A stretch of 64,000 bases of DNA from Rhodococcus sp. ABRD24 (GTDB taxonomy: Bacteria > Actinomycetota > Actinomycetes > Mycobacteriales > Mycobacteriaceae), in assembly GCF_004328705.1 (NCBI RefSeq), contig NZ_CP035319.1, forward strand, positions 4,340,001 through 4,404,000. Reading direction: 5' to 3'. Under the pieces are notes generated by a model. The model was not told the DNA's origin. It did no database searches and saw nothing but the letters and a program-made list of their open reading frames with translations. Of the stretch, positions 34,201 through 54,940 are shown piece by piece (position 1 is the first letter of the stretch; each line of letters opens with the position of its first letter). Both the position numbers and the translations under genes were made by a program.

Positions 34201-34564
34201 CCGGTCGACCCTGGCTGCCCCGGAGAACGCGGCGGAGGTGCTCGCCCGGCTGGTGCAGATGCGTGACCGGGGCCTCGAGGCTCCGCTGCCGATGTCGCCG
34301 GGGGCGTCGTCGGCGTACGCGGACCAGCGGTTCCGGGGGCGATCGATCGAGCTTGCCCTCGTTGCGGCGGAACGCGCGTGGGACAAGGGATTCGACGACA
34401 GCCTGGACCGCCACATCCAGTTCGTGCACGGCGTCGGGGCGAGCCTGTCGGGCCTGATCGACAACGATGCGCCGCCCGGGTCCCATGAACCCAGTCGGTT
34501 CGGTGCCGAAGCGACCGCGCTGTGGTACCCGCTGCTGGCCGCCGAAACCCTGGGAGAACCGTGA
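31262..34564 (+). CDS. recC: Exodeoxyribonuclease V subunit gamma (RecC)
   Basis: A 1,100-residue RecC. It opens with the family's hallmark LTLHRAQGAGTLASALADVL and VAVPAKGVERWLTQRLS; further blocks are SLFGPTRLG and DLVDIHHP, CHGPARQVEALRERLL (SF1B-like remnant), VPMRSVPHRVVVLLGLDDDVFPR, and a C-terminal degenerate nuclease-like domain. RecC is a catalytically dead helicase relative that splits the duplex and scans for regulatory sequence in the RecBCD complex. The start codon is TTG at 31262, with AGGGGG nine bases upstream. The stop overlaps the recB GTG. In mycobacteria RecBCD serves single-strand annealing rather than the main recombination path; the same may hold here. Confidence 0.95.
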   Translation: MLTLHRAQGAGTLASALADVLVAPLTDPFRREVVAVPAKGVERWLTQRLSRILGAGDRGAYGDGVAANIDFPSPTRLVDEVLAAATGLDAENDPWHPSRMLWTLLDVIDGCLDEPWCVVLARHLGRGVDAHTAGDHRVGRRYGTAAHLAELFRSYGAQRPAMLVDWAAGRDTDGADPLDEDLLWQPQLWRRLRERIGTLSPAERLDGACARLRTEPGLVDLPERLSLFGPTRLGADQIAVLSALASNRDVHVWIPHPSLEMWGSSADAAAPIRRADDHRALSASHPLLASLARDVRELQSRLSAVDLVDIHHPAPPRPSTLLGRLQSDIAADRAPSAWTFDDTVEIHSCHGPARQVEALRERLLHLFQDDPTLEPRDVLVVCPDVESYAPLVRAAFGQGAPSQPSYPGHLGHPGHRLRVRLADRALHQTNPVLAVVGTLLEMSDARVTVSQVLDLAATAPVRRRFTFDDDNLERMREWIAAAGARWGIGPRERRAYGLGDFEQNTLRAALDRILLGTAADDADGEWLSLALPLDDVESNDIDFAGRLAEFVDRLDVSLRGLTGPQSAGEWSKALARALDLLVDVPETDAWQLGQAHRELAAAVEHAGDTHLRLSDVRAMLRSRLAGRPTRANFRTGELTVCTMVPMRSVPHRVVVLLGLDDDVFPRGTNIDGDDVLARDPLVGERDPRSEDRQLLLDAIMSADERLLLFYTGADPVNGTPRPPAVPLSELRDVLATMVGSDAVVTRHALQPFDPRNFDPDQPVSFDRSALAGAQAAQRPSVPQAPFLPAPLAPVQPGDVDLAELIAFLENPVQGFLRQRLGFRVPDLDEDTADALDLELDPLARWGIGDRMLAARLAGTDPAAFRAAEWRRGTLPPAKLGATVLADIEWTVESLVRAAAPVHAGRPEAVDVDIDLGLGRRLVGTVDGIYRDVLARTTFSRLAPKHRIGAWVRLLAVAASGGAANLTAVTTGRGSGRVLVARSTLAAPENAAEVLARLVQMRDRGLEAPLPMSPGASSAYADQRFRGRSIELALVAAERAWDKGFDDSLDRHIQFVHGVGASLSGLIDNDAPPGSHEPSRFGAEATALWYPLLAAETLGEP

Positions 34565-37500
34565 CCGCCGGAACATCGCCGACCACCGGCACCGCCTTCG
34601 ACCTGCTCGCCCCGCTGCCGAGCGGGACCACCGTGCTCGAGGCGAGCGCCGGCACCGGCAAGACCTACGCGATCGTCGGCCTGGCGGCCCGGTTCGTTGC
34701 CGAGGCGGGGGTCGATCTGGCGCAGCTGTTGCTGGTGACGTTCAGTCGTGCCGCCACCAAGGAGCTTCGGGAGCGCACCCGCGAGCGATTTGCCTCCGCC
34801 GCAGCTGGATTGGTGGATCCGCTCGCTGCGCGCGCCAGCGGTGATCCCTTGGTTGCCCATCTCGCCGACGCGGATTCCGGCGAGGTGGCCCTGCGGCGCC
34901 GACGGCTGATGCAGGCGCTGTCGGACTTCGATGCCGGCACGATCGTCACCACCCACAGCTTCTGTCAGCGCATGCTCGACGGCCTCGGTATCGCGGGCGA
35001 ACGGGACCCCGACGCCGTCCTGGTGGAGCAGGCCGACGACCTCACCGCCGAGGTGATCGCCGATCTGTTCCTGCAACGTTTCGGGCGCTCCGACTCCCCG
35101 ACCCTGCGGCCCGCAGATGCCCGCAGCGCGGCACGGGCCGCGATCTTCGACCCTCAGGCCACGCTTGCCCCGGAGGGCGCCGAGGGCAGTAGGGCCGGTG
35201 ACGCTGTCGCGTTCGCCACCGCGGTGCGAGAGGAGGCGCGACGCCGCAAGCGACTGGCCGGCATCCGAGACTTCGACGATCTGCCCGAACTGCTGCACGG
35301 GGTGCTCACCGATCCCGAGCACGGCGAGGCCGCGTGCCGGCGGGTGCGAGACCGCTACCGGGTGGTGCTGGTCGACGAGTTTCAGGACACTGATCCGCAG
35401 CAGTGGGGGATCCTGCGGTCCGCATTCCACGGGCACTCCACGCTGGTCCTGGTCGGCGATCCCAAGCAGGCCATCTACGCGTTCCGCGGGGCCGAGGTGC
35501 TCAGCTACCTCGACGCCGTCGGGTCCGCAGACAGCCATCAGGATCTCACCACCAACTGGCGCAGCGATGCGGAACTGGTTGCGGCGCTGGGCCATCTGCA
35601 CGGTGGAGCCGCCCTCGGGCACTCCGGCATCGTCGTGCACTCCGTTTCGGCGGCGAAGCCGGGTTCCCGGCTGCACGGCGCTCCGCCGCTGCGGCTGCGG
35701 TACCTCTGCCGGGCCGGGGCGGGCCGGCTCAACAACTCGGGCTATCCAGCGGTCGGCGCACTGCGCTCGCGGGTCGCGGCAGATGTCGCGGCCGATATCG
35801 TCGCTCTACTCGACAGCGGCATCACCCTCGACCTGAACGGCGGCAGCCGCCCTGTCGCTCCCGGCGATATCGCGGTCCTTGCGGGCACCAATGCGCAGAT
35901 CACGCTGGTGCGTGAGGCTCTCGACCGGGTCGGCGTGCCGTCGGTGCTGGCGGGCGGCACCAGCGTGTTCGAGACGCCATCGGCGCAGCACTGGCTGCGG
36001 GTGCTGCAGGCACTCGAACAGCCGCACCGCCCCGACCGGGTACGGCTCGCGGCGCTCACCCCGCTGCTCGGCTGGACAGCCGAGCAGATCGACGCCCGCA
36101 GCGACGAGCTCGTCGCACGGGTCGGCGGGCAGTTACGGGAGCTGACGGCGGTGTTCGCTCAGTCCGGCTTTGCGGCACTGTTCGAGCGCCTGGCAACCGA
36201 TTCCGGGCTCGAGGCCAGGCTGCTCGCGGTGACGGCCGGGGAACGCACGCTCACCGACCTGCGGCACATCGGTCAGTTGCTCGGCGCCGTCGCGGTGGAC
36301 CAATCCCTCGGGCTCACCGCGCTCACCGGGTGGCTCACCGAGCGGATCAAGGACCCCAAGTCCGGTGGCGGCGACCGTAGCCGACGCCTCGACAGCGATG
36401 CCGCCGCAGTGCAGATCGCGACCGTGCACGCGAGCAAGGGTCTCGAATACCCCATTGTCTACGTGCCTTTCGGGTGGAGCACCGGGCGGCATGCGGATCC
36501 CGACCGGCTGTTGCTGCACGACGATGACGGCCGACGCATCCTCGACATCGGCGGCGAGGGCAGCCCCGGCTATGCCGAGCGTCGACGACGCCGGGACGCT
36601 GAGGCGGCGGGTGAGGATCTGCGGCTGCTGTACGTGGCGCTCACCCGTGCCCAGTGCCAGCTGGTGCTGTGGTGGGCGCCCGCATACTCCACCAACGAGG
36701 CGCCCCTGCACCGGATGCTGTTCGGCCGGGAGCCGGGGGAGTCCGACGTCCCGCAGAAGGTGGGCGTGCCCGAGGATCCGGTCGTCGCACAGCACCTTCT
36801 GCGCTGGGCCGAGACGTCCCCGGCGACGATCCGGGTGGAGGCCGTCGGCGCCGATCCGATCCCGGAGGTGTCGTGGGCGCCGCCGCACGAGGACTCCGGG
36901 GAACTGGCCGCCGCGGTGTTCGATCGGGCGCTCGACGTGGGCTGGCGGCGCACGTCGTACACGGCGCTGACCGCGTCGGCGCACGAGCATTCCGGTAGTG
37001 GCAGCGAGGCCGAGGAGCCAGGGACGGACGACGAACCCGAGGAGCCCGCGCTGATCGCCCCGGTGCCGGCGCCGGGCATTCCGTCGACGATGAACGACAT
37101 GCCGTACGGCGCAGTGTTCGGAACCCTCGTCCACGAGATCCTCGAGTACGTCGACACCGCTGCCGCGGACCTCGAGGCGGAGCTGCTGCTGCGCTGCCGG
37201 GAGGCGGTCGCGGCGCGGATGTCGCAGGTGGATCCGTCGGCACTCGCGGCTGCGTTGCTGCCGGTGCTGCATACCCCGCTCGCGGGGGGCGGCACGCTGG
37301 CCGCGATCATGCCCGCGGACCGGTTGCCGGAGCTGGACTTCGAGCTGCCGCTGGCCGGTGGCGACGATCCGGCGGCGGTCACGGTGACGCTGCACCGGGT
37401 GGCCAGGCTGCTGCGTGAGCACCTGCCCGGCGACGATGTGCTCTCGCCCTACGCGGACCGGTTGGCGGCGCTCGACCCGAATCCCCTGCGCGGGTATCTC

Positions 37501-37881
37501 ACCGGCAGCATCGACGCCGTCCTGCGGGTCTCCGGTCCCCGATTCGTGGTGGTGGACTACAAGACCAACCGGATTGCGCCAGGCGAGCTGACCACTGCCG
37601 ACTTCACCCGTGAGGCTATGGCCGGGGAGATGATGCGCTCGCACTATCCGCTGCAGGCGCTGCTGTATGCCGTTGCGCTGCATCGGTATCTGCGGTGGCG
37701 ACTGCCCGGCTACAACCCGGAGACCCATCTCGGCGGGGTGCAGTACCTGTTCGTGCGCGGCATGGTCGGCCCCGAGACCCCCGACGGGGCCGGGGTATTC
37801 GACTGGAATCCGCCGGCCGCGCTGGTGATCGCGCTGTCGGACCTGTTGGCCGGCATCACCGATCGCGAGGTGGACGCATGA
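34561..37881 (+). CDS. recB: Exodeoxyribonuclease V subunit beta (RecB), helicase-nuclease
   Basis: An 1,106-residue SF1A 3'-5' helicase with C-terminal nuclease. Walker A EASAGTGKT (27-35), motif II VVLVDEFQDTDPQQW, motif III LVLVGDPKQAIYAFRGA, motif V TVHASKGLEYPIVYVP and motif VI LLYVALTRAQCQLVLWW are all visible. The nuclease motif DYK falls at about Asp999-Lys1001 (VVVDYKTNR), with upstream acidic LTGSIDAV, so the nuclease should be active. GTG at 34561 overlaps the recC stop (GTGA) and the stop overlaps the recD ATG. Together the three make the heterotrimer that unwinds and degrades double-strand ends. Confidence 0.96.
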   Translation: MTAGTSPTTGTAFDLLAPLPSGTTVLEASAGTGKTYAIVGLAARFVAEAGVDLAQLLLVTFSRAATKELRERTRERFASAAAGLVDPLAARASGDPLVAHLADADSGEVALRRRRLMQALSDFDAGTIVTTHSFCQRMLDGLGIAGERDPDAVLVEQADDLTAEVIADLFLQRFGRSDSPTLRPADARSAARAAIFDPQATLAPEGAEGSRAGDAVAFATAVREEARRRKRLAGIRDFDDLPELLHGVLTDPEHGEAACRRVRDRYRVVLVDEFQDTDPQQWGILRSAFHGHSTLVLVGDPKQAIYAFRGAEVLSYLDAVGSADSHQDLTTNWRSDAELVAALGHLHGGAALGHSGIVVHSVSAAKPGSRLHGAPPLRLRYLCRAGAGRLNNSGYPAVGALRSRVAADVAADIVALLDSGITLDLNGGSRPVAPGDIAVLAGTNAQITLVREALDRVGVPSVLAGGTSVFETPSAQHWLRVLQALEQPHRPDRVRLAALTPLLGWTAEQIDARSDELVARVGGQLRELTAVFAQSGFAALFERLATDSGLEARLLAVTAGERTLTDLRHIGQLLGAVAVDQSLGLTALTGWLTERIKDPKSGGGDRSRRLDSDAAAVQIATVHASKGLEYPIVYVPFGWSTGRHADPDRLLLHDDDGRRILDIGGEGSPGYAERRRRRDAEAAGEDLRLLYVALTRAQCQLVLWWAPAYSTNEAPLHRMLFGREPGESDVPQKVGVPEDPVVAQHLLRWAETSPATIRVEAVGADPIPEVSWAPPHEDSGELAAAVFDRALDVGWRRTSYTALTASAHEHSGSGSEAEEPGTDDEPEEPALIAPVPAPGIPSTMNDMPYGAVFGTLVHEILEYVDTAAADLEAELLLRCREAVAARMSQVDPSALAAALLPVLHTPLAGGGTLAAIMPADRLPELDFELPLAGGDDPAAVTVTLHRVARLLREHLPGDDVLSPYADRLAALDPNPLRGYLTGSIDAVLRVSGPRFVVVDYKTNRIAPGELTTADFTREAMAGEMMRSHYPLQALLYAVALHRYLRWRLPGYNPETHLGGVQYLFVRGMVGPETPDGAGVFDWNPPAALVIALSDLLAGITDREVDA

Positions 37882-39731
37882 CCGAGGCGCGGGTGGCGCA
37901 GCGCGGCAAGGGTGTGTTGCGGGAGTTCAACGACGCCGGGGTACTCGAGGCGGCCGATGTGCATGTGGCACTGCGGCTCGCGGCGCTCGGCGGGGAGACC
38001 AGCGAACCCGTGCACCTGGCGACCGCGCTGGCGGTGCGGGCGGTGCGATCGGGTTCGGTGTGCCTGGACCTCAGCCGGATTCGGGAGGTGACGGTCGACG
38101 ACGACACCGAGGTGGATCTCTCCGCGCTGCCGTGGCCCGACGACGCCGTCGTCGCCGAGGGTCTGGCTTCCAGTCCGCTGGTGGTCGGCGGCGATGCGGG
38201 GCCGCTGCGTCCGCTGCGGCTGGTGGACGGGCTGTTGTATCTGGACCGGTACTTCCGGCAGGAGGAGACCATCCGCCGGATCCTCGACGAGCGGGCGCAG
38301 GGACACCCGGCCGTCGACGAGGATCTGCTGCGAACCGGATTGGGTGAGTTGTTCCGGGACTTCCGGGATCCGTCGCGGCCGTCGGATGCCCCGGACCGGC
38401 AGCGGATCGCCGCGGCCGTTGCGGTCACGTATTCGACATCGGTGATCGCCGGTGGTCCCGGAACCGGTAAGACGCACACCGTGGCGCGGATCCTGGCCCT
38501 GCTCGAGCGCCAGCATCCAGGGTTGCGAATAGGGCTGGCCGCGCCGACCGGCAAGGCGGCGGCGCGGCTGCAGGAGTCGGTGCGAGAGCAGGCAGAGGTC
38601 GTCGGGCTGCGGGCGGATCTGTCGGCGATGACGCTGCACCGGATGCTCGGGTGGCGGCGCGGCACCAGCCGGTTCCGCTACAACGAGACCAACCATCTGC
38701 CGTACGACGTGATCGTGGTGGACGAGACGTCGATGGTGTCGCTGACGATGATGTGCCGACTGCTCGAGGCCGTCCGGCCCGAGGCGCGGTTGGTGCTCGT
38801 CGGCGACCCGGACCAGCTGACTTCCGTCGATGCCGGTGCGGTACTGGCCGACCTGGTGGCCCGCCCGGTGACCGGCGCCCTGAACCCGGCGCTGGCCCGT
38901 GTTGTCGGTGCGGACCTGTCGGCGTCGGATGATCCGGCCGAGGCGGCCCTGAGTGCGGCCGAGCGGGACCGGTTGCGCGGCGGGGTGATTCGTCTCAGCC
39001 GTGGACGGCGATTCGGCGGTGCGATAGCGCGGTTGGCGGTCGCGGTGCGCGATGGCGACGAGGATCGCGTGCTCGAGATCCTACGCAGTGGGGAGCCGGA
39101 CGTGTCCTTCGCGGCGCCGGAGGAGCTGTCGGCGCTGCGTGCGGACGTGGTGTCGACCTCGGCTGCGGTGACCGAGGCCGCCGCGGCAGGTGACGCGGTG
39201 GCGGCGCTGCGGGCATCGGAGCAGCATCGGTTGCTGTGTGCACACCGGGAAGGACCTTTCGGAGCGGCGTGGTGGGCGCGCAATTCGATGAACTGGATCG
39301 GTGAGGCCACCGGGAGTCGGCTGGATGCCGAACGCTGGTACGCCGGGCAGCCGCTGATGGTGACCGCGAACGACCACGAGACCCGGATCTACAACGGCGA
39401 CACCGGTGTTGTCGTCGCCGGCAGCGGGGATGCCGACGGCGAGCTGGTGGCGGCCTTCGCACGCGGCGAGGAGCCGTACCTGCTGCACCTGAGTCATCTG
39501 GCGTCGGTGCAGACCGTTTATGCGATGACGATCCACCGAAGCCAGGGCAGCCAGTACGACACCGTCTCGGTGATCCTGCCGGGAGAGGAGTCGTCGATGT
39601 TGACCCGGGAGTTGCTGTACACCGCGATCACCCGCGCCCGGACCCATGTGCGGATCGTCGGGACCGAGGAGGCCGTGCGGGCCGGGGTGCGGCGGCGGGT
39701 CCTGCGGGCGAGTGGGCTGCGGCGGGGGTGA
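37878..39731 (+). CDS. recD: Exodeoxyribonuclease V subunit alpha (RecD), 5'-3' helicase
   Basis: A 617-residue SF1B helicase. After an N-terminal domain contacting RecC come Walker A GGPGTGKTHTV (about 192-202), AAPTGKAAARLQES, motif II VIVVDETSMVSL, motif III RLVLVGDPDQLTSVDAGAVL (given in part), and C-terminal MTIHRSQGSQYDTV and LLYTAITRARTHVRIVG. The ATG overlaps the recB stop (ATGA); a longer upstream frame is a shadow. It moves along the 5'-ended strand as the second motor of the complex. It ends 12 bp before the stop of a convergent gene. Confidence 0.95.
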   Translation: MTEARVAQRGKGVLREFNDAGVLEAADVHVALRLAALGGETSEPVHLATALAVRAVRSGSVCLDLSRIREVTVDDDTEVDLSALPWPDDAVVAEGLASSPLVVGGDAGPLRPLRLVDGLLYLDRYFRQEETIRRILDERAQGHPAVDEDLLRTGLGELFRDFRDPSRPSDAPDRQRIAAAVAVTYSTSVIAGGPGTGKTHTVARILALLERQHPGLRIGLAAPTGKAAARLQESVREQAEVVGLRADLSAMTLHRMLGWRRGTSRFRYNETNHLPYDVIVVDETSMVSLTMMCRLLEAVRPEARLVLVGDPDQLTSVDAGAVLADLVARPVTGALNPALARVVGADLSASDDPAEAALSAAERDRLRGGVIRLSRGRRFGGAIARLAVAVRDGDEDRVLEILRSGEPDVSFAAPEELSALRADVVSTSAAVTEAAAAGDAVAALRASEQHRLLCAHREGPFGAAWWARNSMNWIGEATGSRLDAERWYAGQPLMVTANDHETRIYNGDTGVVVAGSGDADGELVAAFARGEEPYLLHLSHLASVQTVYAMTIHRSQGSQYDTVSVILPGEESSMLTRELLYTAITRARTHVRIVGTEEAVRAGVRRRVLRASGLRRG

Positions 39732-40597: not shown

Positions 40598-41371
40598 TCA
40601 GATTCCGGTCTGGTCGACTCCGTAGCGTGCCTGTTCACTCGTATAGCCATCGAACATCAACTGGTCGATCAGGCCTTGTCGTGAGAAGGCTGTGTAGTCG
40701 AGGTAGTCCTCCGCAGCCTTTGCCGCCTGTTCATTCCAATCGGGCGCCACGTAGTCCACGGCGAAGGTCGCGTCCGCGGTCGAGTAGTCCTCGAATTCCA
40801 GTTGCTCGATCAGGCCCTGTCGTGAGAACGCGGTGTAATCGAGATAGCCCTTTGCCGCTCGTACGGCATTCCTCTGCCCGCCCGTCATTCCGGACTCGGC
40901 CCTTGTCGGCGCGGTGGTCTCCGGTTTGACCGTCACGGGCGGCGCTTGCGTTGCTGTTTGTACCGGTGCCACCTGTGTGACCGGGGGTGGCAGCGCCACC
41001 GTTGTGGTCGGGGGCGGCGGAGCCACCGTGGTGGTCGTCGACTTGGTGGTGATTGGAGCTTTCTCGACCGCGCTTGATTGTGTCGTGTTCGCTGCGTTGG
41101 TCGACACATCGTCAGACGATTTACTGATTGAATTGACCACACCGACAATGACGATGAGCGCTACGACCGCGCCGACGACCCACGGCCACTTCTTGCGCGG
41201 GGATCCACCGGAGCCCGGGTCACCGTGCGGCCCCGACGGGTGTTCCGCCAGCGTCGGACCTGTCGGGACCGTCGGGCGCGGCTGAAGTGCCGACGTCCAC
41301 TGTTGTCCGTCCCACCACCGCAGGTGCCCGGAGCCTTGTGGGTCTGGATGCCATCCAGCGGGTGTAGTCAT
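40598..41371 (-). CDS. DUF2510 - transmembrane - Ltp-type surface protein
   Basis: A 257-residue protein. Residues 4-33 form a DUF2510 domain (GWHPDPQGSGHLRWWDGQQW), facing the cytoplasm; KKWPWVVGAVVALIVIVGVV (about 60-80) is a membrane helix; a long Thr/Pro/Val-rich linker spans the wall. Two copies of a ~39-residue Ltp-like repeat follow (about 172-210 and 219-257), both containing YLDYTAFSRQGLI-QL-F. Ltp repeats occur in the phage TP-J34 lipoprotein that blocks DNA injection of other phages, and in many Gram-positive surface proteins. AAGGAC before the ATG at 41371 decides the start. Phage exclusion is only a hypothesis here. Confidence 0.85.
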   Translation of the reverse strand: MTTPAGWHPDPQGSGHLRWWDGQQWTSALQPRPTVPTGPTLAEHPSGPHGDPGSGGSPRKKWPWVVGAVVALIVIVGVVNSISKSSDDVSTNAANTTQSSAVEKAPITTKSTTTTVAPPPPTTTVALPPPVTQVAPVQTATQAPPVTVKPETTAPTRAESGMTGGQRNAVRAAKGYLDYTAFSRQGLIEQLEFEDYSTADATFAVDYVAPDWNEQAAKAAEDYLDYTAFSRQGLIDQLMFDGYTSEQARYGVDQTGI

Positions 41372-41631
41372 GGTCGTCCTTCGTTTGGAATGCTCGCCGT
41401 TAATGCTCGCGTCGACTATCACACAATTCCGATGGGTGTCGTATCAGTAATCCGCGGTCAGATTAATTGTGCAGGCAGTTTGACGGGCCTTCGGCTGTAA
41501 TGCGCCGGTGTGCGGGCTGATTTTCCGGCACGGCAATGACCGGTGTCGGATGGTGACGAGCGAATGACACAACAGATCGGCTGTTTGGTTGATCAGTCGC
41601 CGTATTCGCAAGGTCCGCATGTCGACGCTGA

Positions 41632-44011: not shown

Positions 44012-44593
44012 CTATGCCTTCGGCTCGCCGACGGCGATGGTGGAGCCGAGGTCGCCCGCGTCGTGCCCGCAATCGCAGTCGTCACCGCAGCCACCGCAGC
44101 CGCCCGCGTAGGAGTCGTCGTCGGCATCGCAGTCGAGGGTGCCGCCGAACTTCGCCGCGAAATCGTCGTCGAGGTCGTGGGTGAGCTCGTGGATCTCGTC
44201 AACCAGGTTGATCAGATGCTGCGGGGCGAACGGGTCGGCGTCGACGACCGTCGAGACCAGCAGGTGCTCGTCCTCGAGGGTGAAGCGCAGACGCGGCCAC
44301 TCGACGGACAGCTCGACGAGCTGCTCGACGGCCTTCGAGTGGTCGGTGAGCCCGGTGACGAGTGAGGACCACACGTGCAGCTGCGGGCCGTCCTCGGCGA
44401 CGGTGACGTAGACGCCGAAGCCGTGGACGGGGATGAGGATGTCGCCGTCCTCGTCGGTCTCCGGCGCGCTGCCGAGCAGCTCGGTCAGCGTCCGCACCGA
44501 GAGGCTGTGCAGCTGCTCGCGCTCCTCCGTGGCGATCGCCAGTGCCCCGTCGATACGGGTCGGTTCGATGTCGATGGTGTCGTGCTCGGTCAT
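44012..44593 (-). CDS. YbjN/CesT-like domain protein with Cys-rich acidic tail
   Basis: A 193-residue acidic protein. Residues ~35-145 have the YbjN/type III chaperone-like alpha-beta pattern: ILIPVHGFGVYVTVAEDG, LHVWSSLVTGL, LRFTLEDEHLLVSTVVDADP in part. The tail after ~150 is unusual: CDADDDSYAGGCGGCGDDC and CGHD, six cysteines and a His among Asp and Gly, followed by a short ending. It is conserved in spacing like a metal-binding segment, but no known zinc or iron motif fits exactly. It is the second protein of this fold in the window. Its start faces the methyltransferase end over about 200 bp, the left edge of the low-GC island. Confidence 0.75.
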   Translation of the reverse strand: MTEHDTIDIEPTRIDGALAIATEEREQLHSLSVRTLTELLGSAPETDEDGDILIPVHGFGVYVTVAEDGPQLHVWSSLVTGLTDHSKAVEQLVELSVEWPRLRFTLEDEHLLVSTVVDADPFAPQHLINLVDEIHELTHDLDDDFAAKFGGTLDCDADDDSYAGGCGGCGDDCDCGHDAGDLGSTIAVGEPKA

Positions 44594-44798
44594 GATTCCC
44601 CTGTCCGGCGCCGGCCGGATCTACGGTTCGGACGCTGCTTGGTGTGTCGTGCGGACCCACCGTACCGCGAAACCCTGAGGTCGTTGGACGGGGCTTCAGG
44701 AACAAGTGATATTCGTGACAGGCTTTTGCTGACCAACGTGATGCAAATTAGTTTCAGCCAGTTGGCTCGAAACTGAGAATCGACGATGTGTCCAGATT

Positions 44799-45875
44799 TT
44801 AGTCTTCGCTGAGTGCTCGGGAAATGGTCCTGCCGATGGCGCGACCAAGCGGAATAGGTACTGCATTACCAATTTGTTTGGCGATCGAAGTTTTAGATCC
44901 TACCCACTGGTAGTCTTCGGGAAATCCTTGGAGTCGCGTCGCCTCATAGTGCGTAATTGCGCGATCCTCTGACGGATGCAGGTAGCGCCCCTTCTCGGGC
45001 TTGAAGAATTCCGTTCGAATTGTTACCGACGGGCGATCCCAATGCATCCGGCCCATTACGTCGGCGGAGCCTGTTTTGTGATTTCGCCAACACTCGGCTA
45101 GTAAATGATCGGGTAGGTTGAACCGATTTCCGCCCGAAGGTATTTCTTTGAATCTGTCGAGTGAGACCTTTTCGTATCGCCTGCTTAGGTGTAGATCCAT
45201 CGATTTGAACGCTCCGGGGAGTTGCTTTCCGTTAAATTCAATAAACGAATCGGGAAGTTGTGTTTCGTGAACTGTGTGCGCGATGCCGGCAAGGGCCGCG
45301 CGCACCGTTACCGGGTTCTCGCTGTGTGTATCTTTGGGGAGTTCTGGAGATTTGAGATCTCGATGCCAGCCAAAGATGATCGTTCGTTTTCGCGCTTGCG
45401 CAGCGCCGAAATGTGCGGAGTTGAGAACGGCTACATCGAATGTATAGTTTTGCAGTCTTCCGTCGCGCTTGGTGCTTTGGCGAAAAAGTTCGAATTCCGG
45501 AGACTTCATGAACTGTGGGACGTTCTCCATTATGAAATAGCGAGGCGTAGCGAGCCGGACCGCTTCCGCGTACTGTGACCACAGCTTGTTGCGGGTATCG
45601 GCTGCGTCTTGTCTGCCGAGTGAAGAGAACCCCTGGCAGGGTGGGCCGCCGACGACAACATCGACCTCAGGTACATCCTCGTGGGCAAGCCAGTCCTCGA
45701 TCTTGCCAGCGTAGACGTGTGCGTCGAAGTTTGTGGCGTAGGTCGCTGCTGCCGCTACGTCCATCTCGACCGCGGTGACGGGCCTGAAGCGTTCGTCTGC
45801 AGCGTGTAGGCCTGCAGAAAGCCCGCCAGCTCCTGCAAATAGATCAAGAGTTCGGAAGGCTGACGTGCGCGACAT
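44799..45875 (-). CDS. DNA (cytosine-5) methyltransferase
   Basis: A 358-residue C5-methyltransferase. Motif I is LDLFAGAGGLSAGL (10-23), motif IV VVGGPPCQGFSSLGRQD with catalytic Cys80, motif VI MENVP (116-120), motif VIII QARKRTIIFG, and the C-terminal motifs IX (RPSVTIRTEF) and X (AKQIGNAVPIPLG). The target-recognition region between VIII and IX is short, about 100 residues; the recognised sequence cannot be read from it. ATG at 45873-45875 is the natural start; the upstream extension lacks coding character. It faces the Z1 operon across 330 bp. It most likely provides the self-marking modification of the island's restriction-like system. Confidence 0.95.
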   Translation of the reverse strand: MSRTSAFRTLDLFAGAGGLSAGLHAADERFRPVTAVEMDVAAAATYATNFDAHVYAGKIEDWLAHEDVPEVDVVVGGPPCQGFSSLGRQDAADTRNKLWSQYAEAVRLATPRYFIMENVPQFMKSPEFELFRQSTKRDGRLQNYTFDVAVLNSAHFGAAQARKRTIIFGWHRDLKSPELPKDTHSENPVTVRAALAGIAHTVHETQLPDSFIEFNGKQLPGAFKSMDLHLSRRYEKVSLDRFKEIPSGGNRFNLPDHLLAECWRNHKTGSADVMGRMHWDRPSVTIRTEFFKPEKGRYLHPSEDRAITHYEATRLQGFPEDYQWVGSKTSIAKQIGNAVPIPLGRAIGRTISRALSED

Positions 45876-46205
45876 GGGCAAACGATAGCTTGTGGCTCGG
45901 ACAGGAATCGACGCATCCTCGGCGCCGTCCGGGGGTCCGATCGAAGCTCGGCGACGATGTCGGGCCGAGTCCACCGACTTCTCTGACGCTTTTTCCGCAT
46001 CCCCGTGCGAAGCGCTTGGGGGAGTTCGATACTGTCAGTTGGCTGAGAAGAGACCGGTTGGTGCAGAGTCGCTTCGACTCCGATGGTGTGCGCTTCTCAC
46101 GCAACAGTTCAATGGCTGGTGCAACCATCGGGGTGAGTTTTGCGCGAGTCCAAGTTCAGTACTTTGTTTATCGAAACCGAGTGTGCATAAGTGCAGGGGG
46201 GGCGA
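45876..46205. promoter_or_regulatory. Divergent control region between methyltransferase and Z1 operon
   Basis: 330 bp without a supported gene, low in GC. It must carry the divergent promoters. Weak open frames exist on both strands but none has a ribosome site or recognisable motif. AGGGGGGG just before 46206 is the ribosome site of the Z1 gene. No controller (C) protein gene is present, so balanced expression would have to come from this region or from the methyltransferase itself. Confidence 0.55.
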
Positions 46206-48797
46206 ATGACGGTCGAAGAGATCTCGGACGAACAAGTGGAGCAGCTCTACCAGGTGTTCCTCAAGTTCACCGAGTCGATGACTCCGCATGACGCAGTGAA
46301 GAATCTGAGATTGTTCGACGCGGCAGAGAAGACCATCGAGCTGGTGCGGGCGAAGCATGAGGCCGAAAGTCTGCGGATTCGGGAGCTCGACGAACCGCCA
46401 GCGGTGTTCCTTAACGGACGCCCGACCTGGTATACGGGCCCTGACATGGACAAGGACAAGAATTGGCCCGCCCTGGTGGCGTCCATGCGGAGGAAGGACT
46501 TTGGGAACGTCGAGTCGGTCGACGAGTCGTCCACAAAGGTCGTCGCCCTCCTCGACCACCCGAAGCAGGACGAGTTCCGAACCCGCGGGCTCGTTGTCGG
46601 GTTCGTCCAGTCCGGCAAGACTACTAACTTCACCGCGGTGATGGCGAAGGCTGCGGACCGCGGCTACAAGTTGTTTATCGTGCTGTCAGGTATCCACAAC
46701 GCACTGCGCCGTCAGACACAAATTCGACTCATCAAGGATCTCGTGGACGCGAACCCGGGACAGTGGCACCAGGTCACTAGCGAGACCCAGGACTTCGTCC
46801 CGCCGCCGAACCCGAAGGCTTTCTTTGCTGCGAATGGACAGTTTCTGCTCCTTGTAGTTAAGAAGAACGCTACCGTCTTACGTAAGTTGAACAAATGGCT
46901 TGGTTCGGCCGGTGAATACCTTGACAAGTGCCCGACTCTAATTATCGATGACGAGGCCGATCAGTCCACGGTCGCCACGAAGAAGATTAACCCGCTGCTT
47001 TTCGATCTCCTTAACAAATTCCCGCGGGTCGGCTACATTGGGTATACGGCGACGCCGTTCGCGAACCTTCTCATCAACCCGTCGGTCGAAGAAGATTTCT
47101 ATCCCCGCGATTTCATTGTGAACCTACCGCAGCCAAAGGGCTACCATGGCCCCGAGGTCTTGTTCGGTCGCGATCTACTCGACGGCGAGGATCCTGAGGA
47201 TCTGCCAGGTGGCTGGGATATGATCCGGGAGGTTCCAGAGTGCGAGGTTAAGGATCTCAAGCCGCAGAACAGGAAAGAGGCCGCGGACTTCGAGCCAGCG
47301 ATTACTCATTCTCTCCGGTCTGCTGTGGAGTGGTTTTGGCTTGCCACTGCGGCACGTCGGGTTCGTGGTGGCGGTAACCCACACTCGTCGATGCTTGTGC
47401 ATACGACGACCGAGACGCGTGTGCATGAGGCGTTCAAGGAGCCGCTACTAGCCCTTCGTGATCGGACTTTGCGCCGGCTGAACGCTGGAGATGCGGTATT
47501 CGTGGAGCGTCTTCGTTCGACCTGGGAAGACGAGACGTCTCGTGTCCCCGCCAGTGACTTCAAAGAAGTGAAGGTGCCCTTCGAGTCGGTACTAGGCAAG
47601 CTCCCCGAGGTCGTCCGTGACACCCGTGTGGTAATCGACAACTACCGCAGCAAGGACCGGCTGAACTACGAGTCGGGTCCGGTGACCGCGATCGCGGTTG
47701 GCGGCAGCACTCTTTCCCGCGGTCTGACGCTCGAGGGCTTGATCTCGAGCATTTTCGTCCGAGCGGTGTCTGCTTACGACACCTTGCTGCAGATGGGCCG
47801 ATGGTTCGGATACCGCGACCACTACGCTGATCTTCCTCGAATCTGGATAACCGATGAGCTTGAGGGGTGGTTCAAGCACCTCGCCACGGTCGAAGCGGAC
47901 ATGCGACAAGACATCAATCGCTATATGACGTCCAACGAGACGCCTCTGACATTTGCGGTGCGTCTTCGGTCGCACCCGAAGATGAGTATTACTTCCAAGG
48001 CGAAGATGACGAGTGCCGTCCTCGCGCACGCCGCGTACGGCGGTCAGCTCGTCGAGTCGCGGTTCTTCGATGTCTCCGACACCGGCGGCGACTGGCTGGC
48101 ACGTAACGCGGCCGCGGCAAGGGCCCTAGTCGGAGCCGCAGCCAAGGACGGTGTCCGCGAGGAGGACCGGAAGCAGTCGGCGGTCTTCACGGATGTTCCC
48201 TACGGCACCGTGGTCGATTTCCTGCAGACCTATGAATTCCACCGAGAATCGTCGGATGGTGACCGCAATCGCCTCGTTAACTACGTCAGCAAGAGGGTCC
48301 GAGCTGGGGCGCTTCTTCGATGGAGTGTCGCTGTCATCGGGAACAGCCGGGGTGAGACCGCTGCTTGCGACATGGATGGCGGGGTCTCGGTCAGGATGGT
48401 CAAGCGCGCCCGACTCGGGCAGAAGGACGAGGATCTCGGTGGTGTCGCGGACATCAAGACTCTAAGCAGCCGACGGGACGAGACTATCGATCTGATCGTC
48501 GACGGACCGGTACCGGGAACGCATGTTGAGATCCTCAAGCTGCGGCAGGACCAACGCCCAGACCAGGGCCTCCTGTTGGTGTACCCGATCGAGCCCGAGT
48601 CGGACACGGGAACGGGAGGGCGTCGGCCGCTCGCGGCGCCGACTGACGACGTAGTGGTTGGTGTCTCCATTCTGTTCCCTGAGCCCCGGCCGGGAAGTAA
48701 CGATTCCGACGTTGAGTACTGGAGCGCGGATCTCTCGAACGTCGCGGTCGAGGTAGAAGACGACTCCGTTCTCGAGCAGGACGACGAGACCGTATGA
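46206..48797 (+). CDS. Z1-domain SF2-type ATPase of a restriction-modification-like system
   Basis: An 863-residue protein. An N-terminal helical part is followed by a helicase-like ATPase: Walker A GFVQSGKT (132-139), an IVLSGIHNALRRQT segment, motif II LIIDDEADQ (245-253), motif III YTATPFANLLI (280-290), then the Z1 domain with VAVGGSTLSRGLTLEGL and LLQMGRWFGYR near 495-545, the equivalents of motifs V and VI. Z1 ATPases are known from comparative genomics as components of methylase-linked defence operons with GHKL ATPases. AGGGGGGG precedes ATG 46206; GTG at 46191 is less likely. The stop overlaps the next ATG. Predicted role: ATP-driven translocation or target recognition on DNA. Confidence 0.93.
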   Translation: MTVEEISDEQVEQLYQVFLKFTESMTPHDAVKNLRLFDAAEKTIELVRAKHEAESLRIRELDEPPAVFLNGRPTWYTGPDMDKDKNWPALVASMRRKDFGNVESVDESSTKVVALLDHPKQDEFRTRGLVVGFVQSGKTTNFTAVMAKAADRGYKLFIVLSGIHNALRRQTQIRLIKDLVDANPGQWHQVTSETQDFVPPPNPKAFFAANGQFLLLVVKKNATVLRKLNKWLGSAGEYLDKCPTLIIDDEADQSTVATKKINPLLFDLLNKFPRVGYIGYTATPFANLLINPSVEEDFYPRDFIVNLPQPKGYHGPEVLFGRDLLDGEDPEDLPGGWDMIREVPECEVKDLKPQNRKEAADFEPAITHSLRSAVEWFWLATAARRVRGGGNPHSSMLVHTTTETRVHEAFKEPLLALRDRTLRRLNAGDAVFVERLRSTWEDETSRVPASDFKEVKVPFESVLGKLPEVVRDTRVVIDNYRSKDRLNYESGPVTAIAVGGSTLSRGLTLEGLISSIFVRAVSAYDTLLQMGRWFGYRDHYADLPRIWITDELEGWFKHLATVEADMRQDINRYMTSNETPLTFAVRLRSHPKMSITSKAKMTSAVLAHAAYGGQLVESRFFDVSDTGGDWLARNAAAARALVGAAAKDGVREEDRKQSAVFTDVPYGTVVDFLQTYEFHRESSDGDRNRLVNYVSKRVRAGALLRWSVAVIGNSRGETAACDMDGGVSVRMVKRARLGQKDEDLGGVADIKTLSSRRDETIDLIVDGPVPGTHVEILKLRQDQRPDQGLLLVYPIEPESDTGTGGRRPLAAPTDDVVVGVSILFPEPRPGSNDSDVEYWSADLSNVAVEVEDDSVLEQDDETV

Positions 48798-49786
48798 CAA
48801 TCACCGGGGCGCAGGTCCAAGCACTCTGGACCGCAGTGGCGGCGCAGCCTGCAACGATGGCATTTCGGACGGCAGAGGTCGGCACTGACTGTTCACGAGG
48901 ACCATTGCTGGCTGCTGTCGACCGATCTGGGCGGCGAGTTCTCCTAATTCCGATCTTGGCAAAGCAAACGCTCAAGGAAGACATCGACGGTCAGGCGGTA
49001 GTGCTCCGCAAGCGGGCGTTGGAGAACGATGAGAGCTACCGGACGTACGCGTGCCTGGAGCTGGTCGACGCAGGCCAGGACGACCTGTTCGCAGCACTTT
49101 GCGTCGAAGTGATCGAGCGAGTTGCTGCGCATCCAGACAAGGCTGTTTCCGCGCTCCAGAGGGTCCTTTCTGACTGGAAGGCCCTCCTTGCAGGTGCGCG
49201 CCAGGCATTATCGCCATCCGCTTTGACTGGGCTGTTCGGTGAGCTGTACGTCTTGCGGGAATTGGTCCAGCGTGACTCCGGCGCGGTCGCCTTCTGGACC
49301 GGACCGCTGCGAACTGCACAGGATTTCCATCGCGGTATCGATGCCATCGAGGTCAAAACCACCGCTGCCGTAGACGGGCGACAAGTGCGGATCAACGGTG
49401 TCAGCCAACTCGACTTCGCGATCCCGGGCCGACTGGTTCTCAGGTGGTTTCGGCTCGTGACCGGCCGAGGTATGTCGATCCCATCCCTCGTCGAGGAGAT
49501 CGCAACACTATCGGACGACGCGGCGGGATTCTCGAAGCTTCTCCGGGAGTACGGATATCGCGATACCGATCGAGAGATCTACGCGAGGCGGTTGTTCGAG
49601 GTCGTTGAACACCGCGCGTACGAGGTCGGACATAACTTCCCGCGTGTCGTTCGCTCGAGTTTTTCGGGAGGTGCGGTGCCGGCTGGCGTAACGGAGGTTG
49701 ACTACGTCATCGATCTGGACAGTGTGGGAGCTGAGGCGTCCCGTCTCGATGACAGGGCTCTCGCGCAGTTCATGGGGCCGTCGTGA
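48794..49786 (+). CDS. PD-(D/E)XK motif nuclease-like protein (DUF4420)
   Basis: A 330-residue protein with a restriction-endonuclease-like core: Glu150 in GLFGELYVLRELV, WTGP, then QDFHRGIDAIEVKTT, where Asp183 and Glu186-x-Lys188 form the D...ExK catalytic set, followed by the strand RQVRINGVSQL. This matches the DUF4420 family that accompanies Z1 proteins. The whole catalytic set is present, so cleavage activity is expected. The ATG overlaps the Z1 stop (ATGA), and the stop overlaps the GHKL gene start (GTGA). It is the best candidate for the effector nuclease of the island. Confidence 0.9.
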   Translation: MTITGAQVQALWTAVAAQPATMAFRTAEVGTDCSRGPLLAAVDRSGRRVLLIPILAKQTLKEDIDGQAVVLRKRALENDESYRTYACLELVDAGQDDLFAALCVEVIERVAAHPDKAVSALQRVLSDWKALLAGARQALSPSALTGLFGELYVLRELVQRDSGAVAFWTGPLRTAQDFHRGIDAIEVKTTAAVDGRQVRINGVSQLDFAIPGRLVLRWFRLVTGRGMSIPSLVEEIATLSDDAAGFSKLLREYGYRDTDREIYARRLFEVVEHRAYEVGHNFPRVVRSSFSGGAVPAGVTEVDYVIDLDSVGAEASRLDDRALAQFMGPS

Positions 49787-51651
49787 CGGAGCCGCGGTGG
49801 TGGTCGCAGCCGTTTCCTCCGACTGGCGCGATTGCGTCAGAGGGGATCCGCAACCAGCTTGGAAGACCACCGGTCGACCCGTTAACTGTGTTCGTGAGGG
49901 AGACGGCGCAGAACTCCTGGGACGCACGACGGGTGGGGCTGCCAACGAACTATCGGCTCGAACTGACGGCTGTCTCTCCGACACACCGACCAGCGTGGCA
50001 GCGCCTGCTGACTCCGCCTCCGCAGACGCAGAAGTTCTTCGGCATCGGCAAGGCCGTGCGAACACCGAACCTCAGGCTGCTGTCAGTCGTCGACCGGGGC
50101 ACCAAAGGCCTCGGCGGGCCCACCCGCGCTGACGAGCTCTCGGAGGGCAGCCGGGACTGGGTCTCATTCGTTCTCAATGTCGGCGAGAAGCGCGACACCT
50201 TCCAGGGCGGTGGCACGTATGGTTACGGCAAGGCGGTCCTTTACCGATTGTCGAAGGTTGGGGCAATCTTGGTTTACACACGAACTGATGTTCCTGGCAC
50301 GGGGCTCACTTCTCGACTGATCGGAATCGCCCTCGGCGATTCCTACGATAGTGTGGAGCGCGCCGACGTGGCAGCCCGGCCGTATACCGGGCGCCATTGG
50401 TGGGGCGACGTCCAGGGCGAGCATGTGGAGCCACTGATCGGCGCAGAAGCTGATCGCGTCGCGCGGATGCTCGGGCTGCGTCCTTTCGGCGAGTCGGAGT
50501 CAGGGACTACGCTCACCGTCCTCGATCCCGACTTGGGAGACTTCGACGACGTCGAGTCGGCGGCACAGCATCTCGCTGACACAATTGCGTGGCATATGTG
50601 GCCAATCATGTTGCCTGAGAGAGGCGACCAGCTTTTGATCCCGCAAGTCGTTGCGGGCGGTCGGACGTTCGAGGTGCCCGATCCCGCTAAGACCTACCCG
50701 CTACACATGTTTGTCTCTGCCTACCGTCGCCTCGCGGCAGGGCGAGGGATGGCGTTGGAATGCAAGAACCCGCGTAAACAGCTCGGTCACTTCGCACTTG
50801 AGCGAGCTGTAGTTGTTCCGATGTCTGGAGAGTCGGTACCGCTCGCAGCTAGTTACGCGGGCCTGGACGGAGATCCACATCACGTCTGCTTGATGCGCGC
50901 GCCTGAGTTGGTCGTCCAGTACTACAGGGGGCCTGAGCCGGGCTCGGTCAACAGGGCTTACGCAGGTGTATTTCGAGCTGATGACGAGCTTGACGACACG
51001 TTTGCCGCCGCCGAGCCGCCGACGCACGATCAGTGGGTGCATGAGCAATTGACGGGGCACTCGAAGACCTTTGTAAGGGTCACGTTCACAAGAATCAAGG
51101 AACAGCTCGCGGCCTTCCGGACGCCTGCGGCGTCGGTAACTTCGATATCGACCGGAGTTGCGTTGGGCGCCGCGAGCAACTTCCTCGGCGGTCTCGTTGC
51201 GGCAGCGTTCGCCGAGCCAGGCGCCAAGTCGAGTGATGGCGGCTCGGCGCGGGGTCGCAGTCGTGAACACACAGTTGGTTCCGGCAAGCAACCAGGTGAT
51301 TTCTCGCGTGCTACCCACGATCGAGTTCGAGTCGCCACAGTCGATGAACCCCGTGTCGAGGATCGGGACGGGGATGTTGTTGTCATCCAACGGTTTGCGG
51401 TTACCGGGCCAGGCCCGGTTCATCTTGACGCGCGTTTGGCCATTGTCACATGGGAGGGGCGCGAGGTTGAGGCGCCGGCGGGAGCCGCGCGCCCAAAGGT
51501 CCGATGCTGGGTGACCTCCGTGGGCGAGGTGGCGGCCGAAGCTTGCATCGTTGATACCCCCTGCGAAGTCGACCTTGTAGTTGACCCAGTCCCAGACACG
51601 ATGACCGACATTGCCGTTATCGGTGCATCTCCTGAGGAGGGGGTAGCGTGA
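49783..51651 (+). CDS. MORC/MutL-like GHKL ATPase
   Basis: A 622-residue protein with an N-terminal GHKL ATP-binding fold: N-box FVRETAQNSWDARR (Glu40, Asn44, Asp47), G1 box VVDRGTKGLGG (Asp104), G2 box QGGGTYGYGKAVLYR (141-155). These motifs, with Glu40 as general base, predict ATP hydrolysis coupled to dimer closure, as in MutL, gyrase B and MORC. An S5-like transducer region with conserved basic residues (CKNPRKQLGHFALERAVVVP in part) follows; the C-terminal ~130 residues are a disordered linker plus a beta-rich domain. GTG start overlaps the nuclease gene. Known family context: prokaryotic MORC-like ATPases in methylase-linked operons. Confidence 0.9.
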   Translation: MTEPRWWSQPFPPTGAIASEGIRNQLGRPPVDPLTVFVRETAQNSWDARRVGLPTNYRLELTAVSPTHRPAWQRLLTPPPQTQKFFGIGKAVRTPNLRLLSVVDRGTKGLGGPTRADELSEGSRDWVSFVLNVGEKRDTFQGGGTYGYGKAVLYRLSKVGAILVYTRTDVPGTGLTSRLIGIALGDSYDSVERADVAARPYTGRHWWGDVQGEHVEPLIGAEADRVARMLGLRPFGESESGTTLTVLDPDLGDFDDVESAAQHLADTIAWHMWPIMLPERGDQLLIPQVVAGGRTFEVPDPAKTYPLHMFVSAYRRLAAGRGMALECKNPRKQLGHFALERAVVVPMSGESVPLAASYAGLDGDPHHVCLMRAPELVVQYYRGPEPGSVNRAYAGVFRADDELDDTFAAAEPPTHDQWVHEQLTGHSKTFVRVTFTRIKEQLAAFRTPAASVTSISTGVALGAASNFLGGLVAAAFAEPGAKSSDGGSARGRSREHTVGSGKQPGDFSRATHDRVRVATVDEPRVEDRDGDVVVIQRFAVTGPGPVHLDARLAIVTWEGREVEAPAGAARPKVRCWVTSVGEVAAEACIVDTPCEVDLVVDPVPDTMTDIAVIGASPEEGVA

Positions 51652-52541
51652 GCCGCGCTTTTCCGTTCATTCGTCCACCGGCGGACGTCGTAATCGCAGG
51701 TCCTTGGTCATACGCGGTTGCCGACGGTACCGAGGAACTCCCACGGGAGCTGCCGGATTGGGACTACGACTCTGTCCTCTCAATCCGTCGGCCGGTGCAA
51801 ATTGACGGGCTGCGGGCCCGTCGTCTCAGCGGACTCGCCGAGGACGCGGAGGTCGATTTCACCGTCCGCTGGGCATCGCGTAGCTCGGCTCTACGTGGGA
51901 GGGCGTGGCGCGCCGAAGTGCCAGCGAGGGACGGGATCGAGATTGACATCGAATTCGATCTCGACGGTGATGAACTGGGCGGCGTTCTTGATCTCGACAC
52001 CGTCCTTACACTGCGCCGGTCAACCGAAGGCGCGTCACCGGCGGCAGCATGCCGACCAGGCAGCGTGCTCTGGAACGAAAAATTCTCCATCGTGCTGCAG
52101 GGCGACGCGGTCCTGTTCCCACTCGCTATTGCCGACTTCCACTACCTGCCCTATCCAACCAAAGCCAGCTGGTATCTCGAGATCGGCGAGGACCTCGATG
52201 CCGCCGCACTTGGGTCCATTCTCCTGCTTGCCAACGAGCGGCGGGAGGTCGTAGTCAACGCCCTTGCGGCCGCGGGAGCACCCTCGGTCGCCGACCGGCG
52301 TGTCCTCTCCGCTCTCCGTACCGATGTTCAGCGCGCGCTCATCGAACGTGCACTGACTCATGAGGATTTCGCCGACGACGTCGACTATCCGACCGGTTCG
52401 CTCGGCGCAGTGCTCACCGCGGTCCTGCGCATGACCTTCCCAGCGTTCAGTCTGGAGGCGCTAAGGCGCGAACGGCTTTCGGAGCCAGCACTATTCACCA
52501 GCCGCGTCCAGGACGCTACGGATCTTCTGGCGGCGCCGTGA
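51648..52541 (+). CDS. Uncharacterised protein of the Z1/GHKL defence operon
   Basis: A 297-residue protein with no family I can name. The first ~150 residues are beta-rich and acidic (VVIAGPWSYAV, EVDFTVRWASRSS, IEIDIEFDLDGDELGGVLDLD in part). A short central strand-turn region contains FSIVLQGDAVLFPLAIADF and FHYLPYPTKASWYLEIGEDLD (parts), and the C-terminus is helical, with DVQRALIERALTHEDFADDV. GTG start overlaps the ATPase stop and its stop overlaps the next start, so it is an obligate member of the operon. A structural adaptor or DNA/protein-recognition subunit is possible, but nothing in the sequence shows an enzyme. Confidence 0.82.
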   Translation: MSRAFPFIRPPADVVIAGPWSYAVADGTEELPRELPDWDYDSVLSIRRPVQIDGLRARRLSGLAEDAEVDFTVRWASRSSALRGRAWRAEVPARDGIEIDIEFDLDGDELGGVLDLDTVLTLRRSTEGASPAAACRPGSVLWNEKFSIVLQGDAVLFPLAIADFHYLPYPTKASWYLEIGEDLDAAALGSILLLANERREVVVNALAAAGAPSVADRRVLSALRTDVQRALIERALTHEDFADDVDYPTGSLGAVLTAVLRMTFPAFSLEALRRERLSEPALFTSRVQDATDLLAAP

Positions 52542-53320
52542 CCAGTGTCCTTTACCCTCGCCTCCTCGACCAAGCTGCGCGTGAACTGCACCAGCAGCAC
52601 ATAGGCTCAACAGTGCCACAGCTGCAGGAAAGCGCTGCCTTCAATCACCGGTCCGCGGTCTTCGCGGCGACCGGCGGGCGCCGAGTCACCGAGGATGAAC
52701 TCCGGGATCTCCGGAATCACATAGTCAAGGCAGCCGAGTGTGCGGGCTTCCCTGGCGAGGGCGGGCGCGCGGATCGCGCGCACTTCGACCTGGAGGTAGC
52801 CCAACTGATCCACGAGCGATCTGGATTGGTTGCGGCCGAGGCCTCAGTTCGTTCAATCTGGGCCTTCCTGGCCCTCGTGGTACTGCCTGACGTTTCGTAC
52901 TGGCGGTATCCTGCTCCGCCGGTTGACCGGGTGATGGGTACAGACATAACGCGTCACGTTTGGGGACGGTTGTGGTGGCGCGCGCACCTCCTCACACTGC
53001 CCCAGCAGGTTGAGCGGTATCAACTCCTTGATGTATTCGGTGAGGCCGCGTTCGACCAGATCTTCGCCCGCCGTAAGTCCATCGGCGGCAGCCGCGCCCT
53101 TGTGCGCGCGCTCGCGGTGACCTGGCCAAACATAGAGCGAGGAGGAGTGAACGATCGCCAGCTGCTTCGCGACGTCCTCAAGCGACTCCTGCGGACGAGC
53201 GCGATCGCCGAGTTTGAGGCACTCGACGACGAGGAGCTTCACAAACAAGTAGCCGAGGCGGTGGCTGAATCGGTTGCAGTTCTAGCGTTGCGCCTACCGG
53301 TATCCGGCGCCGGAATCTGA
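52538..53320 (+). CDS. DUF6339-like protein, last gene of the defence operon
   Basis: A 260-residue helical protein resembling DUF6339 family members: an N-terminal YPRLLDQAARELH helix, a central conserved LALVVLPDVSYWRYP, then HVWGRLWWRAHLL, and a C-terminal helical bundle with VRALAVTWPNIERGG and DVLKRLLRTSAIAEFEAL. The W/R-rich centre is the recognisable part. GTG at 52538 overlaps the previous stop. Family members are repeatedly found at the end of Z1-GHKL operons, but no activity is known to me. Assignment is by recall of the pattern and should be checked by a profile search. Confidence 0.78.
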   Translation: MTSVLYPRLLDQAARELHQQHIGSTVPQLQESAAFNHRSAVFAATGGRRVTEDELRDLRNHIVKAAECAGFPGEGGRADRAHFDLEVAQLIHERSGLVAAEASVRSIWAFLALVVLPDVSYWRYPAPPVDRVMGTDITRHVWGRLWWRAHLLTLPQQVERYQLLDVFGEAAFDQIFARRKSIGGSRALVRALAVTWPNIERGGVNDRQLLRDVLKRLLRTSAIAEFEALDDEELHKQVAEAVAESVAVLALRLPVSGAGI

Positions 53321-53463
53321 TGGACGTTGACTGACCACACACGAACTGCTCGCTCGGTGTGACTGTCGCCACTGGGCTGTAGCGGGCGCGCTATCAAGTG
53401 GGTGGATCTGCATCGCAACTAAACGGATCAGCTTTCGAAGATGGTAACGGTGGCGATTCTGAA

Positions 53464-54843
53464 CTAATCCAACACGGAGCCGGGATTGAGAATCCCCAAC
53501 GGATCGAGCGCGTTCTTGACCCGCCGATTCAACTCCATGACATCCTCACCGAGCTGCCCTGGCAGCCAGTCCCGCTTGAGCCGTCCGACTCCGTGTTCGC
53601 CGGAGATTGTGCCTCCCAGAGCGATTGCCAGTTCCATGACGCGGGCGAAGGCGGTGCGGGCGCGGTCGGTCATGTCGGGATCGGTGGGGTCGAAGACGAT
53701 CAGCGGATGGGTGTTGCCGTCGCCGGCATGCGCGACGGTGCAGATCAGGACGTCGCAGTCCTCGGCGATCGCCTCGACCCCGGTGATCAGCCTCGGCAGT
53801 TCCTGCATCGGAACCCCGACGTCCTCGAGGAGCATGCTGCCAATCGCCTGCACGGCGGGGAACACGGATCGTCGTGCGGCGGTGAAGGCCTCGCCCTCGG
53901 CAGCGTCGTCGGTGGCGAATACCTCGGTGGCGCCGTGCTTCTCACACGCGGCGACGATGGTCTCGATCTCCTGCGCGCTCGCGGCGCCGGGGGCGTCGGA
54001 CTGCGCCAGCAGCAGCGCGCGGGCATTGCGGTCCAGACCCATGTGCACGGCGTCCTCGACGGCGTTGATGCTCGCGTGGTCCATGAACTCGAGCATCGCG
54101 GGTCGCATCACCCGCGTGATCGACAGGACGGCCTCGGCAGCGGCCTCCACCGAGTCGAACGAGGCGACAACCGTCGACGCCGGCGATTGCGCCGGGATCA
54201 GCCGCAGTGTCAGCTCGGTGATGATCCCGAGCGTGCCCTCGCTGCCGACGAACAGCTTCGTCAGCGATAGCCCAGCGACGTCCTTGAGTAGCGGCCCGCC
54301 GAGCCGGACGGCGGTGCCGTCGGCGAGGACCACCTGCATGCCGAGCACGTAGTCGGTCGTCACCCCGTACTTGACGCAGCACAGGCCGCCCGCGTTGGTG
54401 GCGGCGTTGCCGCCGATCGAGCAGATCTCGAACGACGACGGGTCCGGTGGATACCAGAGTCCGTGCGCCGCGGCGGCCTGCTTCACCTCCGCGTTGAGCA
54501 GACCGGGCTGGGTGACGGCGACGCGGGTGACCGGGTCGACGGTGATCTCCCGCATCCGTTCGGTGCTCAGGACGATGCCGCCGTCGAGGGCGCTCGACCC
54601 GCCCGACAGCCCCGAGCCCGCCCCGCGCGGCACCACCGGCACCCGATGCGCCGACGCCCACCGCATCACCGCCTGTACGTCTTCGGTGCAGGTCGCGCGG
54701 ACGACGGCGATCGGGGTGCCGGCGTTGGGGTCGGCGGCCCAGTCCTGGCGGTAGCTCGCGACCATGTCCGGGTCGGTGAGCACGGCGCCGTCGGGCAGCG
54801 CGCCGATGAGTTGGTCCAGAACAGCCGAGTCCACCGTCGTCAT
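53464..54843 (-). CDS. FAD-linked oxidase, glycolate/D-lactate dehydrogenase type (GlcD-like)
   Basis: A 459-residue flavoprotein. The FAD_binding_4 domain shows VVPRGAGSGLSGGSSAL (about 78-94) and SIGGNAATNAGGLCCVKYG (given in part), plus LFVGSEGTLGIITELTLRL (part); the C-terminal FAD-oxidase domain shows THAGDGN-type AHAGDGNTHPL, SGEHGVGRLKRDWL and LDPLGILNPG. These fit oxidation of a 2-hydroxy acid (glycolate, D-lactate or similar) to the oxo acid. No cysteine-rich FeS domain is fused and no glcE/F neighbour exists, so the electron acceptor is unclear. ATG at 54841-54843 is chosen. Its divergent neighbour starts about 100 bp away. Confidence 0.92.
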   Translation of the reverse strand: MTTVDSAVLDQLIGALPDGAVLTDPDMVASYRQDWAADPNAGTPIAVVRATCTEDVQAVMRWASAHRVPVVPRGAGSGLSGGSSALDGGIVLSTERMREITVDPVTRVAVTQPGLLNAEVKQAAAAHGLWYPPDPSSFEICSIGGNAATNAGGLCCVKYGVTTDYVLGMQVVLADGTAVRLGGPLLKDVAGLSLTKLFVGSEGTLGIITELTLRLIPAQSPASTVVASFDSVEAAAEAVLSITRVMRPAMLEFMDHASINAVEDAVHMGLDRNARALLLAQSDAPGAASAQEIETIVAACEKHGATEVFATDDAAEGEAFTAARRSVFPAVQAIGSMLLEDVGVPMQELPRLITGVEAIAEDCDVLICTVAHAGDGNTHPLIVFDPTDPDMTDRARTAFARVMELAIALGGTISGEHGVGRLKRDWLPGQLGEDVMELNRRVKNALDPLGILNPGSVLD

Positions 54844-54940
54844 GCGTCCATCATCCCCCGGATGCCCGATTTTCGGCCGGAGTCGAACCGCGGCCGATAG
54901 CGTCGGACATGTCGACGAAATCGGACAGAGGGGGAGCACT

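Follow-up and report, generated by a model that had tools for sequence, protein, structure and literature searches.

In a 64,000-nucleotide stretch of Rhodococcus sp. ABRD24 DNA (the window), we analysed the six-gene cluster of methylation, nuclease and ATPase genes at 44799..53320 and compared it with related loci and known defence systems. The cluster is probably a restriction-type defence that destroys foreign DNA lacking the methyl mark of the host. In the accessible text of Miller et al. 2022 (PMC9523054), a putative six-gene defence system, 'type I', with the same three core parts is predicted and no mechanism is given; the window therefore most probably holds a further example of this known kind. 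The original prediction of a little-studied restriction-like defence system is supported in part, and the kind had been predicted earlier by genome comparison.

Components of the cluster

The C5-cytosine DNA methyltransferase gene (44799..45875, − strand; Pfam DNA_methylase, 3.7e-62) diverges from a run of five tightly packed + strand genes (46206..53320), confirming the arrangement first described; by the coordinates of the parts, adjacent + strand genes share 4 bp at 48794-48797, 49783-49786, 51648-51651 and 52538-52541. The methyltransferase comprises 358 amino acids from the ATG at 45875, the longest open reading frame reaching a GTG at 45974, and its catalytic PPCQ is intact in a motif check. 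Methyltransferases associated with such loci sort by motif and score into alpha (ENV), beta (EQV) and gamma types, the window enzyme being alpha. A promoter scan of the divergent intergenic region (45876..46205, 330 bp) found no sigma-70-like site, though actinobacterial promoters may escape such a scan.

The first gene of the run (46206..48797, +) is followed by the DUF4420 PD-(D/E)XK nuclease (48794..49786, +, 330 amino acids; Pfam, 1.2e-57). Its active site had been described as an intact D...ExK, and we observe E150, D177 and E186-x-K188 in the window copy, with the E, D, E and K kept in 79/79 copies. The nuclease gene occurs in 78 of 80 loci; the core is found without it at L073, L084, L089, L090 and, within the stretch covered, L004. 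Gabija genes directly precede one nuclease-lacking operon, and DISARM-like genes precede L084.

The GHKL ATPase (49783..51651, +, 622 amino acids) carries the N, G1 and G2 boxes, as claimed earlier, together with E411-x3-H415. These boxes and the E-x3-H are present in 81/81 sequences, and one glycine in 80/81. In the accessible text of Iyer et al. 2008 (PMC2292703), paraMORC2 is defined by GHKL boxes and by an ExxxH within the ATPase module, in its C-terminal part; the window protein shows both. MORC proper is marked by the GhXhhpXXRhl motif in the S5 domain; membership was rejected because the motif is absent from the window protein, and it was found anywhere in only 2 of the 81 sequences. 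The protein is of paraMORC2 type. Titles and abstract openings in the literature describe eukaryotic MORC proteins as compacting DNA.

The last two genes encode a 297-amino-acid protein of no named family (51648..52541, +), predicted to form an immunoglobulin-like β-sandwich (about residues 9-153) followed by a helical C-terminal part, and a DUF6339 protein (52538..53320, +, 260 amino acids), predicted to be all-helical and bearing no appended domain or extension.

Comparison with known systems

The three further genes of the Miller type I system probably correspond to paraMORC2, the 297-amino-acid protein and DUF6339. The accessible text reports a strong association with DNA repair endonucleases, whereas a scan of the six window proteins and the four closest flanking open reading frames revealed none. 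The window nuclease is, judged by sequence, a relative of MzaD, matching the NCBIfam MzaD model at 6.9e-36 and 124 bits, below the cut-off of 420. Membership in MZA was rejected because MzaB and MzaE are unmatched: neither NCBIfam nor PADLOC linked the GHKL protein to MzaB at E values up to 1, and profile searches matched none of the six proteins to the AIPR protein MzaE. Gene order also differs, and the MZA-type proteins compared from L091 gave no match to profiles of the 297-amino-acid protein or DUF6339.

In an abortive alternative, the complex would sense infection, perhaps through methyltransferase inhibition or loss of the mark, and then destroy host DNA, with the methyltransferase serving as antidote. 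An AIPR (abortive-infection type) protein is present in related MZA-type operons, but the profile searches found neither AIPR nor a recognised toxin domain in the six window proteins, and we consider this alternative unlikely relative to restriction of unmarked foreign DNA.

Matches to PADLOC PDC-M33 are weak but significant (GHKL protein to PDC-M33A, 2.3e-8; DUF6339 to PDC-M33C, 1.8e-5), the same-genus locus L106 matching more strongly (5.2e-24 and 2.6e-8). Iyer et al. 2008 also describe a third type of MORC/paraMORC operon; the accessible text does not mention the 297-amino-acid protein or DUF6339, and no Vsr was seen in the window cluster. In CglI and NgoAVII the nuclease is PLD plus B3, and GHKL, DUF4420 and DUF6339 are absent; a PLD-B3 nuclease subunit of the CglI type was not found in the cluster, where the nuclease is DUF4420 and none of the six proteins matches PLD or B3. 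A Corynebacterium diphtheriae BH8 island, also among the closest systems, differs, by the accessible text of PMC5379612, in its HTH-fused Dcm and EcoRII-like nuclease, and holds three unclassified proteins.

Pseudo-methyltransferases and DUF6339 in related loci

In 41 of the 80 loci there is a gamma-like gene that lacks the catalytic cysteine, either fused behind DUF6339 (34 loci in Streptomyces and close relatives; L031:12894-14732 and 33 further loci) or separate (7 loci, all Nocardia; for example L074:4109-5098). Of these 41 loci, 40 also encode a cysteine-bearing methyltransferase, the exception being L063. Among the 41 pseudo-methyltransferases compared (the 40 full-length ones from these loci and one from a same-genus genome, L106:962-1975), arginine replaces the cysteine in every one. 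The ratio of nonsynonymous to synonymous substitution rates has a median of 0.19 and a maximum of 0.55 (189 pairs with dS under 1.2). The region around VGGS-RGG-DLGP, presumed to be the DNA-recognition region, is strongly conserved. Two intact gamma enzymes, at L050 and L083, may resemble the pseudo-methyltransferase ancestor. No pseudo-methyltransferase was found in the window's genome, where the query matched two other enzymes only. At 8 loci DUF6339 is extended instead by a tail 233 to 252 residues long; two tails were checked against DUF3320, and L042 scored 25.9 bits (cut-off 25) while L050 fell below the cut-off.

We tentatively propose that the dead methyltransferase, with arginine for cysteine and its presumed recognition region kept, may serve a restriction machine as its DNA-reading subunit. 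DUF6339 would then act as a general socket, linking interchangeable readers (the pseudo-methyltransferase, the DUF3320-like tail or, as in the window, a partner in trans) to a paraMORC2 clamp and to a motor and a nuclease that can each be exchanged. The invariant substitution makes this a specific hypothesis on DNA reading, testable by binding assays. Among the matches listed in an open-access library, no paper on the pseudo-methyltransferase or DUF6339 was found, and no worked mechanism for paraMORC or MORC-like systems of this kind was found in the literature, these ATPases having been predicted restriction-system parts since 2008; the compact six-gene form, widespread in Actinobacteria, offers a tractable test case.

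Genomic site

A housekeeping role in DNA repair or the chromosome, with the methyltransferase a chance neighbour, is suggested by broad distribution in Actinobacteria and an ATPase of MutL-like class; it is very improbable given that the cluster was not found in 13 same-genus genomes, a hotspot location and methyltransferase linkage about 100x background. The hotspot (44012-54939), a genus-wide site of defence genes, runs from a YbjN-type TY-Chap1 gene (44012..44593, −) to a FAD-linked oxidase gene (53464..54939, −; open reading frame extent, start unsettled). Its cargo differs among the genomes read, G001 resembling G009 and a PDC-S37-like gene being common to G003 and G005. RecBCD-like genes, a UvrD-PD-(D/E)XK helicase-nuclease and a RecD-like helicase, lie at 34522-39731. 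The protein at 40598-41422 has DUF2510 and a pair of repeats of Ltp, the host cell surface-exposed lipoprotein domain, which is associated with phage superinfection exclusion.
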